Source: a virus | DNA: 20,043 nt | Reading direction: 5' to 3' (one strand) | IMG/VR virus record: IMGVR_UViG_3300005582_000162 | Span: 1-20,043 of that record | Shown here: positions 1,198 to 20,043 of the stretch, piece by piece | How the letters are laid out: every line of letters starts with the position of its first letter | Position numbering within the stretch: position 1 is the stretch's first letter | Position numbers and translations under genes: made by a program | Notes under the pieces: generated by a model | Databases searched by the model: none | Told to the model about the DNA's origin: nothing | The model's input: the letters and a program-made list of their open reading frames with translations, nothing else

Positions 1198-1830
1198 ATG
1201 TCAAAATACTTTACATACTTTCCAAAAACTATCTATAATCTAGAGGGTTCTAAATCTCTTGATGTTATTACCAATCTAACATCCAGTTTTTCATTTGATG
1301 ATAATATCCTAGAAAATGCGGTATCTTACTATGAGTACTCAGTTCCTGATGGTGAAACACCAGAAATTGTAGCACATAAAGTATATGGTGATGTTGAGAA
1401 ACATTGGGTTATTTTGAAAATGAACGGAATCGTAGATGTTAAAACAGACTGGCCTATAGAACAAAGAATGCTAGATAATGTGGTACATACTAAATATAAG
1501 ACTGCTTCAATTTTAGATGGGCTAGCATGGGCCAAAGCAAATAATCATTCTTATTATAAAATAGAAACTCGTTTGTTTCCATTGACTCGGGAAAAAACAG
1601 AAACTAAAATCCAAATAACAGCAGCCGCATATGCAAATTTAACAGCATCTAGTTCCAATTATACCTTAGCTGATGGTAATGCTTTAACCGTGTCTGTTGA
1701 CAAAACTGTTATAACTTATTATGAGCATGAAGTTGAATTGAATGATGATAAACGAAATATTAAAATTTTAAGAAATGAATTTATATCTGAAGTTGACAGT
1801 GAATTTATTAGGGTAATCAGTAATGTCTGA
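1198..1830 (+). CDS. 53: gp53-like baseplate wedge subunit
   Basis: This is a 210-residue protein, close to T4 gp53 (196 residues), which joins wedges during baseplate assembly. The N-terminus has an aromatic 'YFTYFPKTIYN' start. Residues about 40-80 carry 'YYEYSVPDGETPE', 'VYGDVEKHWVILKMNGI' and 'DWPI', the LysM-like core typical of gp53. The C-terminus has 'NDDKRNIKILR', also a family hallmark. Between about residues 138 and 180 lies a Thr/Ser/Ala-rich stretch that looks like a small insertion. ATG 1198 is chosen because it lies one base after the gp48 stop and gives the family N-terminus. An in-frame ATG at 1144 would overlap gp48 by 53 bases and add non-family residues. No strong Shine-Dalgarno is visible, so translation is probably coupled to gp48. 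Confidence 0.85.
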   Translation: MSKYFTYFPKTIYNLEGSKSLDVITNLTSSFSFDDNILENAVSYYEYSVPDGETPEIVAHKVYGDVEKHWVILKMNGIVDVKTDWPIEQRMLDNVVHTKYKTASILDGLAWAKANNHSYYKIETRLFPLTREKTETKIQITAAAYANLTASSSNYTLADGNALTVSVDKTVITYYEHEVELNDDKRNIKILRNEFISEVDSEFIRVISNV

Positions 1831-3163
1831 TGCACAGATTACACAATCTTCTCAATATACAATTAATCCAAGAGGAATAACACTAGTTACTAAACTTGGT
1901 GAAATTAATTTGGCGGGTATGTTTCAAGAATTAACTATTTTTGATTCTATTTTTAATCCGTGCATGTCTGGTACTGTTCTAATACAAGATGCTGTAGGTT
2001 TATCAAATAAACTTTCATTTGATGGCTCCGAAACTTTGTTAATTAACATAGGTAAAACTGAAAATGTAGCAGTTATCAAAAAGTCATTTAGAATATTTAA
2101 ACAAAGTTCTAGAACGAGTGTAAGTTCTGGCTCAGAAATGTATCTTCTTCATTTTGTCTCGGATGAATTTATTCTATCGCAACAAAGTTCTATTTCTAAA
2201 GCATATAATAATTCTTATTCAGAAATCGTCAAAGATATTTTAAAAAATTATTTGTTACTACCAGATGATAAAATTTTCTTTATTGAACGAACAAAAGGAA
2301 TAAGAAAAATTATTTTACCTAATCAAACTCCATTTTGGTGTTTAGATTTTTGTTCAAAGAGAGCAGTTGATTTTGATTTATCTCCTTCTTTTTTGTTTTT
2401 TGAAAATAAATTAGGATATAATTTTAACACAATTTCTAGAATGATTTCCAGTTTTCCAACTCATTTTATCAATTATCAACCAAAAAATTTAGGATTAGAG
2501 AATAATGAGCGAGATGAATTACTTGGCGCTAAGTATGTAGAGGTTATAACGCAGTTTGATTTAAATAAAAATATTAAATCTGGAGTCTATGCTGGAAAAT
2601 TTATCGGTATTGATATCACATCACGAAAAGTATATGAACGAAATGTGAGTTTTGCTGAGATGTATGCAACAGCAAAACATGCAAATAAAACTCCAAACAT
2701 TGGTGTATTTAAAAATAAAGCTGATATAGATAATACACAAATGTTTAATTCCAGAAGAGTTATGGCTTCAACTGGTATTTTTGGTTCTGAAAGCAAATAT
2801 ATTAAAGAAAATGATCCTACTTCTATAGATTCGGATGATGATACATACAATTATACCATACAAAGAGAAGCTTCTATAATGAATTTAATGAATCAACGAT
2901 TGAAAGTTGTTATGCCTGGAAATTTTAATTTAATTTCTGGAACAACAGTTTATATATCTTTACCAACAGAGAGTGAACATGCAACCACAGATAACAGTGA
3001 TAACACAGATTACTCAATGAGTGGTAAATATTTAATAACAGCCACAAGACAAATAATTACTTACGAAAAACACGAAACTATTATGGAAGTCGCAACAGAT
3101 TCTACAGAGCGACCATCAGTTTATAAAAGCTCTCAACAGCAAAATGATGTAGTTTACACATAA
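1823..3163 (+). CDS. 27: gp27-like baseplate hub protein
   Basis: This 446-residue protein (T4 gp27 is 391) starts inside the end of gp53, with an 8-base overlap that implies translational coupling. In T4, trimeric gp27 forms the hub torus that holds the gp5 spike. Residues about 30-80 ('LTIFDSIFNPCMSG', 'IQDAVGLSNKLSFDG', 'LLINIG') match the T4 gp27 order of a small strand, 'RDSLY..', and a Met/Asp/Gly segment. Near the C-terminus, 'MPGNFNLISGTTVYI' parallels 'IGNFNLTPGVKIIF' of T4, followed by a strand and a 'HE.' segment. The middle (about 150-330) is more divergent and includes an extra charged loop. The next genes encode gp5 parts, exactly the expected partner. The family call is strong; the fine domain boundaries are inferred. 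Confidence 0.8.
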   Translation: MSDAQITQSSQYTINPRGITLVTKLGEINLAGMFQELTIFDSIFNPCMSGTVLIQDAVGLSNKLSFDGSETLLINIGKTENVAVIKKSFRIFKQSSRTSVSSGSEMYLLHFVSDEFILSQQSSISKAYNNSYSEIVKDILKNYLLLPDDKIFFIERTKGIRKIILPNQTPFWCLDFCSKRAVDFDLSPSFLFFENKLGYNFNTISRMISSFPTHFINYQPKNLGLENNERDELLGAKYVEVITQFDLNKNIKSGVYAGKFIGIDITSRKVYERNVSFAEMYATAKHANKTPNIGVFKNKADIDNTQMFNSRRVMASTGIFGSESKYIKENDPTSIDSDDDTYNYTIQREASIMNLMNQRLKVVMPGNFNLISGTTVYISLPTESEHATTDNSDNTDYSMSGKYLITATRQIITYEKHETIMEVATDSTERPSVYKSSQQQNDVVYT

Positions 3164-3174: not shown

Positions 3175-4272
3175 ATGATTGAAAGAGGTGTAGATTTAGT
3201 GTCGTGGATAGGTGTTGTTGAGTCAAGATTATATGACCCACGGCAAGAAGGGCGTGTTCAAGTTAGAATCTTTGGTTATCATTCTGGAGATACATCTGAT
3301 ATAGAGATAGAAGATTTACCTTGGGCAGAGGTTGAACTACCAACAAATGGAGGACCAAAAGTGCCAGATTTACCACGAGGAACTTTTGTGCGAGGTTATT
3401 TTTTAGATGGCCATTCAGCGCAAAAACCGATGGTGGTAGCTGTGCTTCCTGGTTTGTACACAAGAATGCCAGTGGCATCATTGGATGGAAAACGTGTTGT
3501 AGAGGCCTCAAAAGAGCCTAAACCAAGTGATAAAATTATAGTGACCGGAACAATAGTAGGTGAACCAACAACAGGAAAAACATTACCAGATATAGTTAAT
3601 CTTGCAAATAAAAATAGAATTCATATTTGCGATATACGGGATGAAATGAAAAAAGCGGCTGCTTTTGCAAGATTAAAATTCTCTCAATTAATAGCTGCAA
3701 TTAGAACTGCTGTTAGGGCTATATTAACAGCTTTAGGTTTTTCTCCAGATGGCGTAACTGCTAGGTTTATTGAAATAGCAAAAGGCATTTTACGAGATTT
3801 AAAATTTATTACAAAAATAATAAAAGAAATTTCTGATATTGCTGTTATTCTAGTTTTCTATGCAAAAAAACTTCGGGCAATGATTGATTGGTTATTGTCT
3901 TTACCAAAAAATTTATTGGCACTTCTTTCTAATTGTTTATCTGAATTGTATTCTTCATTGGCTTCTGGATTCAGTGAGTTGTTTTCTTTATCTGGCACGG
4001 AAGGAACAGAAGCAGTATCTTCAATAACAGAAACTATGCAAGTTTTTTCAGATATAGCAACTGAAACAAAAACGATTGTACAAGGTACAATTGACATTAT
4101 TAATACACCAATTGCAATAATTGATGCACTGACCAATCCTGCATCGGCAGCAGATATTGAAAAAGTTGGAACTCAAATAACAAGTCTATTAGCAGCTACA
4201 GCAGCCGCAGACACTTCAGCAAATACTGCGCTGGCTATTACTAATTCTATTAACAAAACGATAAGTGTTTAA
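3175..4272 (+). CDS. 5: gp5-like N-terminal OB-fold spike protein without lysozyme, with hydrophobic helical C-terminal half
   Basis: This is a 365-residue protein. Residues 1-110 form the OB-fold of T4 gp5: 'WIGVVESRLYDP', 'GRVQVRIFGYHS', 'LPWAEVELP' and 'GTFVRGYFLDG' match, in order, the T4 segments that bind gp27. T4 gp5 then has a lysozyme domain and a beta-helix. Here no phage-lysozyme signature (the Glu-Gly ... Tyr-x-Asp-Thr-x-Gly ... Gly-x-Gly pattern) is visible. Instead, residues about 155-365 are helical, with strongly hydrophobic stretches (about 168-190 and 220-260) and an Ala/Thr/Ser-rich end. The beta-helix is encoded by the next gene, in a different frame, one base downstream. 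A clear Shine-Dalgarno precedes the ATG. Inferred role: connects hub and spike. The helical part could be a scaffold, a spacer, or membrane-active; I cannot tell which. Confidence 0.8.
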   Translation: MIERGVDLVSWIGVVESRLYDPRQEGRVQVRIFGYHSGDTSDIEIEDLPWAEVELPTNGGPKVPDLPRGTFVRGYFLDGHSAQKPMVVAVLPGLYTRMPVASLDGKRVVEASKEPKPSDKIIVTGTIVGEPTTGKTLPDIVNLANKNRIHICDIRDEMKKAAAFARLKFSQLIAAIRTAVRAILTALGFSPDGVTARFIEIAKGILRDLKFITKIIKEISDIAVILVFYAKKLRAMIDWLLSLPKNLLALLSNCLSELYSSLASGFSELFSLSGTEGTEAVSSITETMQVFSDIATETKTIVQGTIDIINTPIAIIDALTNPASAADIEKVGTQITSLLAATAAADTSANTALAITNSINKTISV

Positions 4273-4273
4273 A

Positions 4274-5167
4274 ATGGCAGATAATTTAATAAATCCCGAT
4301 GAAGTAAATAAACCATCCAATGATGAATCTTGGACTGAACGGGAATCTGAAGCCAGTATAGAGAATCCTCCTGTATATCCATATAACAAAATTACTATGT
4401 CGGAATCTGGGCATATGTTTGAGATGGATGATACTAAAGGGCGTGAAAGAGTTCGTATTCAACACGGCGGCGCAAAAACTGACGGCAAAGGTTCTTTCAT
4501 TGAATGGCATTCAAATGGTGATGTAACAACTAAAATACAACGAGATAATTATGAAATAACATTAGGAAAAAATAGAGTATATGTTAAGGGCGTATGTAGT
4601 GTTACTATAGATGGAGATTCTATCGTACACATTAAAGGAAATAAATTTGAAAGAATTGATGGAGATTATACACAAGAGGTTCGTGGAAATGTAACTCAGA
4701 ACTTCAAAAAAGAAACTAAAATTCTTTCAAGTGGAGACATGACAATTGGATGTGGTGACCCGGTAACTGGAAGTTTGTTTATTTCCACTGGCGACTCTGC
4801 TTATGTGCAGGGAGATTTGAGTGTGGCGGGTTCTATAAATGGTGATATGATAACATCAAGAACTAAAGTAAATGCAGGAACTCAAGTTAATGCCGGTCCT
4901 CTTGGATTTGTGTCAGAACTTGGAGGACTAGCAATAGGCTCACCAGTAGCAATACCCCTAGACGTTATAGTTCCATTAGGTAACATTTATGTAGGAGAAA
5001 GCGTTAACGCTCTCATATCTGTAAATTCTCCTCTTATAAATGGAATCATCGTTGAAGATGTAGGAGGAACAATGATGGGAATACGATTATTACATAATGC
5101 ACATAATCATATAGGTAATAAAGGATTTCCTACCAGTACACCAATCATTCCAATGATTTTAATTTAA
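4274..5167 (+). CDS. gp5-like C-terminal beta-helix spike protein with His-x-His tip
   Basis: This is a 297-residue protein. After a polar leader (1-30) comes 'YPYNKITMSESGHMFEMDD' (about 35-53), then 'RVRIQHGG' and 'SNGDVTTKI'. This is the T4 gp5 segment leading into the triple-stranded beta-helix. Short Val/Ile-x-Gly repeats follow (about 90-150: 'VYVKGVCSVTIDGDS', 'IKGNKFERIDGDY', 'VRGNVTQNF'). The C-terminal part is glycine- and hydrophobic-rich and ends with His274, His277 and His279 ('HNAHNH'), then Pro/Ile. The spike tips of P2 gpV and phi92 gp138 use a His-x-His motif from three chains to hold iron; the same use here is inference. ATG 4274 is chosen because it is one base after the upstream stop; a GTG at 4265 would only add three residues. 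An in-frame stop at 4262-4264 separates this ORF from upstream coding. The protein should form the pointed end of the membrane-piercing needle. Confidence 0.8.
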   Translation: MADNLINPDEVNKPSNDESWTERESEASIENPPVYPYNKITMSESGHMFEMDDTKGRERVRIQHGGAKTDGKGSFIEWHSNGDVTTKIQRDNYEITLGKNRVYVKGVCSVTIDGDSIVHIKGNKFERIDGDYTQEVRGNVTQNFKKETKILSSGDMTIGCGDPVTGSLFISTGDSAYVQGDLSVAGSINGDMITSRTKVNAGTQVNAGPLGFVSELGGLAIGSPVAIPLDVIVPLGNIYVGESVNALISVNSPLINGIIVEDVGGTMMGIRLLHNAHNHIGNKGFPTSTPIIPMILI

Positions 5168-5181: not shown

Positions 5182-6027
5182 ATGGCTAGTGCTTTTGGAA
5201 GACTAAATTATAACTTTGATGATACCAAATATGGTTCATCAATCTATTTAACTACAGATACTAAAGAATACTTAAATACGTATCCTTTGTTACTAAAAAC
5301 TTGGCAAAAAAATGATATAGCAAATGGTAATATACAAAACTCTAATTATTTTAAAAATCCATTATCTACTATATGCGACCAATTGTCTGCTAATGTAAAT
5401 ACATTTTCAAGTGTAATATCAACAATTGTTAATTTTGATGATGTTAGTGTTAATGTAGCAATTCTTTTGGCTGCGACTACAAATCTTAAAATAGAAATAA
5501 TAAATTTTAAAAGCCACACATCTAATGTTTCAGGATTAACAAAAAGTACATCTTCAGTGGATGAAGGTAATCGTACAGTTACCGAATATCCAGATTATCA
5601 AAAATCAACTGCAATTGGGCAACTATTATTGCAAATAGTAAATGCTACAGATTCTGTACTAAATTCTACACCGGTGTTGGGTTCTATGACAAGTCTATTC
5701 ATTGGTTCAGAATTAAGTTCAAATCTAACTACAATACAAACTGATACAGTAACTGTCAATAATAGCATAAGATTAGTTTCAAGTAATTTAGATTCAAATC
5801 TAACTTCTTCTGCTGTAAACACAATTATTTCTCATTTTCAATCTGCAAATACTATACTTGCAACTAGACGAGAACATGATTGGAATTTTTACAGAAACGC
5901 AATTTCTTTAGTCAATGACTACAATCAAGTAAACGGATTAGGTCATCTCGGCAATACTCAAATATATTTGGTAAATAATTTGATAGGAACTAACAGTTAT
6001 ATTACAAATATTGCCGCAAATACTTAA
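5182..6027 (+). CDS. Unassigned helical baseplate-cluster protein
   Basis: This is a 281-residue protein of unknown function, lying between the spike gene and gp25. It has no signal peptide, no clear membrane segment and no enzyme motif. Long stretches read as amphipathic helices with regular Leu/Ile/Val spacing (about 60-110 and 145-225). It has a single Cys at about 65. The C-terminus is the most distinctive part: 'TRREHDWNFYRNAISLVNDYNQVNGLGHLGNTQIYLVNNLIGT' pattern positions, with a conserved-looking Trp-Asn-Phe-Tyr, Asp-Tyr and Tyr-Leu-Val-Asn-Asn. I have an impression that comparable proteins occur next to gp25 in marine T4-like phages, but cannot verify it. The position between hub and wedge genes makes a virion structural or assembly role likely. 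No T4 counterpart is recognised. Confidence 0.55.
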   Translation: MASAFGRLNYNFDDTKYGSSIYLTTDTKEYLNTYPLLLKTWQKNDIANGNIQNSNYFKNPLSTICDQLSANVNTFSSVISTIVNFDDVSVNVAILLAATTNLKIEIINFKSHTSNVSGLTKSTSSVDEGNRTVTEYPDYQKSTAIGQLLLQIVNATDSVLNSTPVLGSMTSLFIGSELSSNLTTIQTDTVTVNNSIRLVSSNLDSNLTSSAVNTIISHFQSANTILATRREHDWNFYRNAISLVNDYNQVNGLGHLGNTQIYLVNNLIGTNSYITNIAANT

Positions 6028-6039
6028 TAAATAGAATAT

Positions 6040-6444
6040 ATGTCAACCGTAACCGTTAAAACCACAAGACAGTATAAAGACCTAGATTTGGCTTTTACTA
6101 TGCATCCTATTAAAAAGGATGTTACTAAACATGTGGATGAAATGGCCGTTATTAATTCGGTTAAGAACTTAATATCAACTTCTAGGTATGAAAGACCGTT
6201 TCAGCCTCTATTAGGTTCCGGAGTCAGAAATTTGCTATTTGAGAATATGGATTCTATAACGGCAAGTGTATTACAAAGAGAGATTATTCAAACTCTAGAA
6301 AATTTTGAGCCTAGAGTTTCTGTTAGAGAAGTTAATGTTTCACCAGATTATGACAATAATACTTATAGAATTGGTATGACTTTTTTCATAATTAATAGAA
6401 CTGAGCCTATAACCATACAATTCTTCTTACAACGAGACAGGTAA
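6040..6444 (+). CDS. 25: gp25-like baseplate wedge protein
   Basis: This 134-residue protein is close to T4 gp25 (132 residues). gp25 is the small, widely conserved wedge protein, related to type VI secretion TssE, that sits near the sheath start. Residues about 60-75 have 'RPFQPLLGSGVRNLLFE', and about 87-96 have 'TLENFEPRV' with the EPR motif that defines the family. The C-terminus has a 'YRIGMTFFIINRTEPITIQFFLQR' pattern of two strands. No obvious Shine-Dalgarno lies before ATG 6040. gp6 follows after one base, the same order as in T4 (25-6). Confidence 0.95.
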   Translation: MSTVTVKTTRQYKDLDLAFTMHPIKKDVTKHVDEMAVINSVKNLISTSRYERPFQPLLGSGVRNLLFENMDSITASVLQREIIQTLENFEPRVSVREVNVSPDYDNNTYRIGMTFFIINRTEPITIQFFLQRDR

Positions 6445-18912: not shown

Positions 18913-19140
18913 ATGAAAGTAGAAGGTACTAATTTTATTAAAGATTTAACTACAAATGCTCTGTTAATGACTGGAAGAAATGCTTTAATTGAAAATGAAG
19001 CTAGGAAAAAACTTGCTGAGAGAATGAATGGTAAAAATCAAGAGATAAATAATCTAAAGAATCAGGTAAATTTATTGTCTTCCGATATAAATGAAATTAA
19101 AGGCCTACTTAACTTATTGTTGAAACCGAGTAAAGAATAA
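18913..19140 (+). CDS. Small coiled-coil protein upstream of the tail fibre
   Basis: This is a 75-residue protein with no signal peptide. The first 25 residues are polar with 'MKVEGTNFIKDLTTNALL'. Residues about 25-70 are charged and helical, with leucine/isoleucine/valine at roughly heptad spacing ('INNLKNQVNLLSSDINEIKGLLNLLL' pattern) typical of a short trimeric or dimeric coiled coil. It starts eight bases after the giant gene and its stop overlaps the next ATG by one base. Position suggests an adaptor, chaperone or attachment factor for the fibre or the giant protein. No named family is recognised. Confidence 0.65.
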   Translation: MKVEGTNFIKDLTTNALLMTGRNALIENEARKKLAERMNGKNQEINNLKNQVNLLSSDINEIKGLLNLLLKPSKE

Positions 19141-20043
19141 TGTCAATTACTAATATTACAAGAACAAATACTATTGATGCATGGCGCATTCAGACCAATT
19201 TATCAGCAAATGCTCTGAATCAAATTGAAACTGGTGATTACAATAAAACCAATGGAACTTTTTCTATATCGTCTAATGGCGCTTTAGCTATTACTGCTTC
19301 TGGAACAGCATTATCAGTCGCAAATGGCGCATTATTTTCATCAAATGTAACTGTAGGTAAAGAAATTGTCCTTGGGGCAGAACAATCCGCAACTGGAAAT
19401 TTAGGAGTTGGTGGCATAGTTTCAATTTATGGAGTAGGCACTGCATTATACGTAGCTAATAATATACTTGTAGGAAGTGGCACTAGAGGAAATGTTATAG
19501 TATCAAATAAAATCACAACAAATACTATAACAGTAAATGCAAATGTTGTTGTAGTTGGTACAACTAATACTGGATATATCGGAGTTGCGAATACTTTAGT
19601 AGTAGGATTAAGTGGCACGATTGGAACAACTTTAGATGTTACAGGAAACACTACTGCTGGTAATTTAATTACTGCGAGTTCTGTCGTAGCAAATAACGCT
19701 AGAATAACTGCTAACACATCTGTTGGAGAAGAACTAACAACAATTACCATCAATGCAACAAACGCTAGAATATCTGCTAACGCTAATGTCGCACACTTAA
19801 CATCATCTGGTTCTGTTGTAGCAGACAATGCTAGAATAACAGCGAATACAACTGGTGCTCATTTCATAGCATCTGGTTCTGTTGTAGCAGACAATGCTAG
19901 AATAACTGCTAACACAACTGGTACTCATTTTGTAGCATCTGGTTCTGTCGTAGCCGATAATGCTAGAATAACAGCCAATACAACTGGTGCTCATTTTGTA
20001 GCATCTGATTCTGTCGTAGCAGATACCGCTAGAATAACTACAA
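19140..20043 (+). CDS. Repetitive tail-fibre-like protein, 3' end outside window
   Basis: I translated this frame directly. It starts at ATG 19140, whose first base is the last base of the preceding TAA, and stays open to the right edge (301 full codons). The N-terminus 'MSITNITRTNTIDAWRIQTN' followed by 'LSANALNQIETGDY' resembles the attachment ends of marine T4-like fibre proteins. After about residue 40 it becomes a Gly/Ala/Asn/Thr/Val-rich, low-charge, strand-turn sequence. From about residue 180 it turns into 22-residue repeats with the core 'ARITANT'. Such sequences form long trimeric beta-structured shafts. The receptor-binding tip is probably beyond the window. The fibre role is inferred from composition, repeats and position; which T4 fibre it replaces is unclear. 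Confidence 0.72.
   Translation, partial: MSITNITRTNTIDAWRIQTNLSANALNQIETGDYNKTNGTFSISSNGALAITASGTALSVANGALFSSNVTVGKEIVLGAEQSATGNLGVGGIVSIYGVGTALYVANNILVGSGTRGNVIVSNKITTNTITVNANVVVVGTTNTGYIGVANTLVVGLSGTIGTTLDVTGNTTAGNLITASSVVANNARITANTSVGEELTTITINATNARISANANVAHLTSSGSVVADNARITANTTGAHFIASGSVVADNARITANTTGTHFVASGSVVADNARITANTTGAHFVASDSVVADTARITT
19677..20043 (+). repeat. 66-base tandem in-frame repeats in the tail-fibre shaft
   Basis: Units start at 19677, 19743, 19809, 19875, 19941 and 20007 (the last cut by the window edge), exactly 66 bases apart. Each encodes 22 residues with core S-V-V-A-D-N-A-R-I-T-A-N-T. Units three to five are nearly identical, while the first two are diverged. There are no spacers, so this is a coding repeat. 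Confidence 0.9.

Follow-up and report, generated by a model that had tools for sequence, protein, structure and literature searches.

The virus of IMG/VR record IMGVR_UViG_3300005582_000162 appears to encode its T4-type cell-puncturing device in pieces, and we consider the C-terminal domain of another tail protein, encoded in the tape-measure slot beside gp26 and here called the slot protein, to be the most likely agent of peptidoglycan cleavage (probability of about 0.75). We refer to the whole stretch of DNA analysed, 20,043 nt in length, as the window. In the proposed mechanism, a first product of the gp5 locus (gp5N) would form an OB ring seated on trimeric gp27, with a helical module at the place of the T4 lysozyme. 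The spike (gp5C) would be translated on its own as a trimeric beta-helix with its own HxH tip, and would join gp5N non-covalently, by analogy with the cleaved gp5* and gp5C of T4. The slot-protein C-terminal domain, delivered with the tube, would then cut the peptidoglycan, as has been proposed for Sit of phage P1. We infer the gp27-gp5N-gp5C assembly.

The gp5N gene (3175..4272, + strand) encodes an OB-fold protein of 365 aa, with the OB domain at residues 1-100 (3175..3474, +) and the helical module at residues 140-275 (3592..3999, +). The gp5C gene (4274..5167, +) encodes a separate beta-helix spike of 297 aa, trimeric as judged from its sequence, with the tip motif HNH (His277, His279) at 5102..5110 (+). 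The hub protein on which the OB ring is expected to sit is of gp27 type; it is encoded at 1823..3163 (+) and was assigned by its match to PHROG_350 (tail protein, 3.3e-73) and by gene order, as its gene precedes gp5 in the same way as in KVP40 and phiM12. The stop codon of gp5N (TAA, 4270-4272) is separated by a single base from the ATG of gp5C at 4274, which is in a different frame, and an in-frame stop upstream of gp5C is present at 4262-4264; the initial annotation had described this layout with exact coordinates. The ORF lister places the start of the second ORF at GTG 4265, and we took gp5C from ATG 4274 because the spikes of relatives also begin there. The sequence AAGGAG precedes gp5N. 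No obvious ribosome-binding site of gp5C was found upstream of ATG 4274, and this, together with a start one base past the gp5N stop, suggests that translation of gp5C is coupled with that of gp5N. Downstream from the spike the window contains a 281-aa ORF (5182-6027), with a similar ORF at the same place in the relatives checked, and at its end an open, fibre-like ORF (19140-20042) with repeats of type SGSVVADNARITANTTGAHFVA. No near match to the 20-kb window was found among 50,697 phage records.

Both gp5 products match PHROG_430, gp5N with residues 8-117 (1.7e-23) and gp5C with residues 17-182 (7.1e-35), while their single-sequence Pfam matches are weak (Gp5_OB 0.0089 and Gp5_trimer_C 0.0018, respectively). 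The profiles built from relatives, run against PDB sequences, match T4 gp5 at 5-117 for the OB domain (E 3.6e-22) and at 382-507 for the spike (E 7.6e-30), and the predicted OB structure of gp5N matches T4 and KP1 gp5, then P1 gp5. On these sequence comparisons, gp5N carries an N-terminal OB fold homologous to that of T4 gp5 and gp5C its C-terminal beta-helix, presumably trimeric; the identities proposed beforehand for the two proteins were borne out. In the T4 gp5 family the two modules are on a single polypeptide, an arrangement that we did not find in the window or in its relatives with distinct helical/spike pairs. In line with the earlier reading that neither protein shows a lysozyme motif, Pfam and PHROG searches gave no lysozyme family match in gp5N or gp5C, nor in the corresponding proteins of L012, L024 and L026; the window thus has no recognised lysozyme between OB fold and beta-helix, where T4 has its tail lysozyme.

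The alignment between gp5C and T4 gp5 starts 20-30 residues into gp5C, and ungapped extrapolation puts gp5C residue 1 near T4 gp5 residue 353 (358 via a KP1-like chain). Since T4 gp5 is cleaved between Ser351 and Ala352 (PMC3004832), the gp5N/gp5C gene boundary would, by this extrapolation, fall near the T4 cleavage site. The idea that the phage makes the cleaved state genetically therefore holds as a description of the topology. It needs one correction: in T4 the beta-helix inhibits the gp5 lysozyme (PMC3004832), and with no lysozyme here this motive for separating the two is lost.

The spike is under purifying selection, with His277 and His279 invariant across 41 aligned spikes. An HxH motif within the last 50 residues, as at the tip of the metal-tipped spikes of P2/Mu type, is present in all the distinct complete split spikes (63/63) and absent from all 12 ORFs for a spike or gp5 taken from other records, at least one of these ORFs being truncated. 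As a double-histidine iron-binding region comparable to the gp5C tip is described in the Sf14, Mu and P2 spikes (PMC11821841), the HxH tip of gp5C may bind metal. A search that detected a PAAR domain in KVP40 gave none for the window or for the records of 12 relatives, an absence that is only suggestive since the relatives' records are fragments.

In those 12 records Phage_lysozyme2 (PF18013) is present in three, one of which also has an SLT domain, and there was no match to PF00959, Amidase_2, M15_3 or NLPC_P60. The carriers are ORFs of 671-765 aa on the opposite strand, beyond the gp4, tail-tube and gp26-like genes, and these matches pointed to the slot protein; KVP40 and Mosig have proteins of 655-656 aa near their gp51 and gp26 genes. 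By scanning with slot proteins and with profiles of the domains we collected 82 slot proteins of full length, representing 52 clusters at 90% identity. The C-terminal domain is lambda-lysozyme-like (A5 type) in 18 clusters and resembles one of six Pfam hydrolase families (one of them weakly) in 20, precisely PF18013 in 6, PF07486 in 5, PF00959 in 4, PF01832 in 3, and VanY and a VgrG3-like domain in 1 each. A further 11 clusters have domains of the NNPG (8), L233 (2) or L239 (1) type, and the 3 clusters without a domain, left unassigned, each adjoin a partner gene with one (A5 type, L239 type and VanY, respectively), these partners being counted too.

We set these classes with our own profiles and ran Pfam on representatives. 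The PF18013, PF00959, PF01832, VanY and VgrG3-like domains are above the Pfam cut-off; PF07486 scores 20.5 and 21.5 bits, short of its cut-off of 27. For the NNPG, L233 and L239 types (11 clusters) Pfam matched none of the representatives. The A5 type, with no credible Pfam match, was aligned by hhalign with the C-terminal end of phiM12 gp5, which carries a muramidase annotation (97.9%, 3.3e-13), and weakly with lambda R (38%). The A5 model (pLDDT 74, pTM 0.73) aligned by VIA-align with Z 9.4 to residues 102-252 of the A-1(L) hub, which lie inside the part named lysozyme by its authors (PMC10966104), and with Z 7.8 to lambda lysozyme. Z values in this middle range may be due to chance and Foldseek by itself gave no significant result for A5 (E 1.1); we base the assignment on hhalign and VIA-align together. 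The enzymatic activity of the slot-protein C-terminal domains is putative. A hydrolase domain at the slot-protein C-terminus, as in P1 Sit, was found in relatives only. Position and size fit a tape measure, and the slot protein may be one; its N-terminus, which has no known homologue, shows no homology to the KVP40, Mosig or phiM12 counterparts, and its match to a tape-measure PHROG lies over the lytic domain, so the term rests on position and size.

Gp5 parts are also present in 31 of the 87 slot-protein loci, 30 of them without an OB-spike fusion. OB, helical and spike modules occur together as split genes in 3 loci, and most of the others end before the spike. In one locus (L241) OB fold and spike are fused without an intervening lysozyme and the slot protein has PF00959, which fits a relocation of the lysozyme preceding the split; from a single locus, however, the order cannot be fixed. 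In the window phage the slot protein lies off the contig, and the hydrolase-like domains are known from slot proteins of relatives. A contig identical to the window over 3,713 bases (L007), which terminates within gp5N so that the junction lies outside it, contains slot-protein residues 3-212. These are 68% identical to a protein (G012) that has PF18013, and the slot protein of the window phage presumably carries a lytic domain as well.

The enzyme that opens the wall might instead be elsewhere in the virion, for instance in a gp25-like or fibre-borne domain, with the slot protein unrelated to entry. T4 gp25 was once described as a 15K lysozyme in work cited by PMC5259590, the window contains a 134-aa ORF at 6040-6444, and hub-borne hydrolases exist in other phages, e.g. 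A-1(L) (PMC10966104). We consider this improbable, as the slot protein belongs to the tail gene cluster and varies precisely in its C-terminal domain. Less probable still is a purely mechanical entry, in which the tipped needle would pierce the wall with no virion enzyme. The baseplate of phiCD508 shows no hydrolase (PMC11948020) and both gp5N and gp5C lack a lysozyme; on the other side are the hydrolase-like domains on the relatives' slot proteins and the N-terminus of the same slot gene on the near-identical contig. The initial annotation had supposed that the phage opens the wall another way or not at all: the first part is probably right, and the second probably wrong because relatives bear hydrolase-like domains on a protein of the tail cluster.

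We return to the reading in which the slot protein cuts the wall, and to what gp5N has at the lysozyme's place. A lysozyme fold predicted in gp5N residues 110-365 had been named beforehand as a refutation of this absence; residues 138-364 are predicted helical instead, and since the mean pLDDT over the whole model is 58 we take this as a tendency and claim no fold. A conserved module, with helices predicted at low confidence, thus seems to occupy the place of the lysozyme. It was detected (residues 140-275) in 116 ORFs and is under purifying selection in four of the five pairs compared (e.g. dN 0.014, dS 0.78; dN 0.062, dS 0.52); between the window and L006, a record about 97% identical to it, changes are too few to judge. 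Matches of the module to designed bundles and apolipophorin were judged to be chance, and a single-domain search of phage records with the middle of gp5N found nothing. A diverged lysozyme hidden in this region is very unlikely: the region sits where T4 has its lysozyme and the model is poor there, but family, profile and structure searches give it no support in the window or, for the family searches, in relatives, the prediction is all-helical, and in three-gene loci the helical region is part of separate genes. As a separate observation, window and L006 are 67-84% identical in the OB region (window 3200-3600) between flanks of 94-100%, a pattern suggestive of recombination in the OB segment.

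The split is general to uncultured T4-like phages that make up a large group, in which gp5, without its lysozyme, is encoded by two and sometimes three genes. We searched 138 loci with profiles of the OB, helical and spike modules, and the distinct helical/spike pairs, the window's own included, are encoded as separate genes in all cases (76/76): 60 in two-gene loci, 10 in three-gene loci where OB is separate too, and 6 whose OB end lies beyond the contig. That relatives might share the split and the lack of lysozyme had been anticipated. The spike always starts with ATG, from -4 to +19 nt relative to the preceding stop, and since spacing and frame vary among the 76 pairs we saw no common frameshift signal. 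Although the two ORFs are one base apart, a sequencing or assembly error as the source of the split is refuted by L006, with the same split, and by 76/76 distinct pairs of varied spacing and frame, so that its probability is negligible. OB fold and spike are fused in one gene in T4, KVP40, Mosig, phiM12, a cyanophage, BUCT-ZZ01 and IME-SM1.

With T4 gp5 the locus shares, by profile, homologous OB fold and beta-helix and a mature state of two chains; T4 differs in encoding one chain that is cleaved, contains lysozyme and is capped by the PAAR protein gp5.4. The gp5 of P1 also lacks lysozyme, and the SLT domain of its tape measure Sit is proposed as the hydrolase (PMC9024508; PMC12810830), but it fuses OB and needle and has a PAAR-type tip protein, UpfC, where here there are separate genes and an HxH tip. 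The KVP40 record states that gp5 lacks the lysozyme domain; in KVP40, however, OB and spike are fused, a PAAR gene adjoins, and the slot protein is without a Pfam hydrolase. P2 gpV, Mu gp45 and Sf14 gp47 have a double-histidine tip below the beta-helix and no lysozyme (PMC11821841), and are spikes of another lineage, whereas the metal tip is putative here. A tape-measure hydrolase is also described for TM4 (PMC1796659). Lysozyme-less gp5 (KVP40, P1) and a tape-measure lysin (P1 Sit) were therefore already known; in the literature searched, which covered few subscription papers, we found no account of T4-like gp5 OB and spike as separate genes.

Taken as a whole, it is somewhat probable that a large uncultured T4-like branch dismantled gp5 into OB, helical and needle genes, replaced the PAAR cap by an HxH tip, and made wall opening an exchangeable slot-protein cassette drawn from about seven hydrolase-like families. 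This suggests that the single cleaved gp5 of T4 is apparently not the sole route to a T4-type needle, and that cleavage can be dispensable when the lysozyme sits elsewhere. Free exchange of lytic domains within the branch is a prediction of this reading, and the OB, needle and lysin parts, being unfused in nature, are material for tests of needle attachment and detachment.

Other arrangements of gp5 modules were seen in the records compared. At L010:5968-9139 (also in L008, L009 and L011) they extend over four genes, encoding OB, Phage_lysozyme2, an Amidase_2 protein and spike. An OB protein with CHAP is about 40 kb from the spike protein in L029:5918-6832 and L005:4492-7080 (Agrobacterium phage OLIVR5), both being annotated as gp5. 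In phiM12 (L002:6001-9179) gp5 combines OB and spike with a muramidase-like domain at the C-terminus, and the next gene carries an M15 peptidase.
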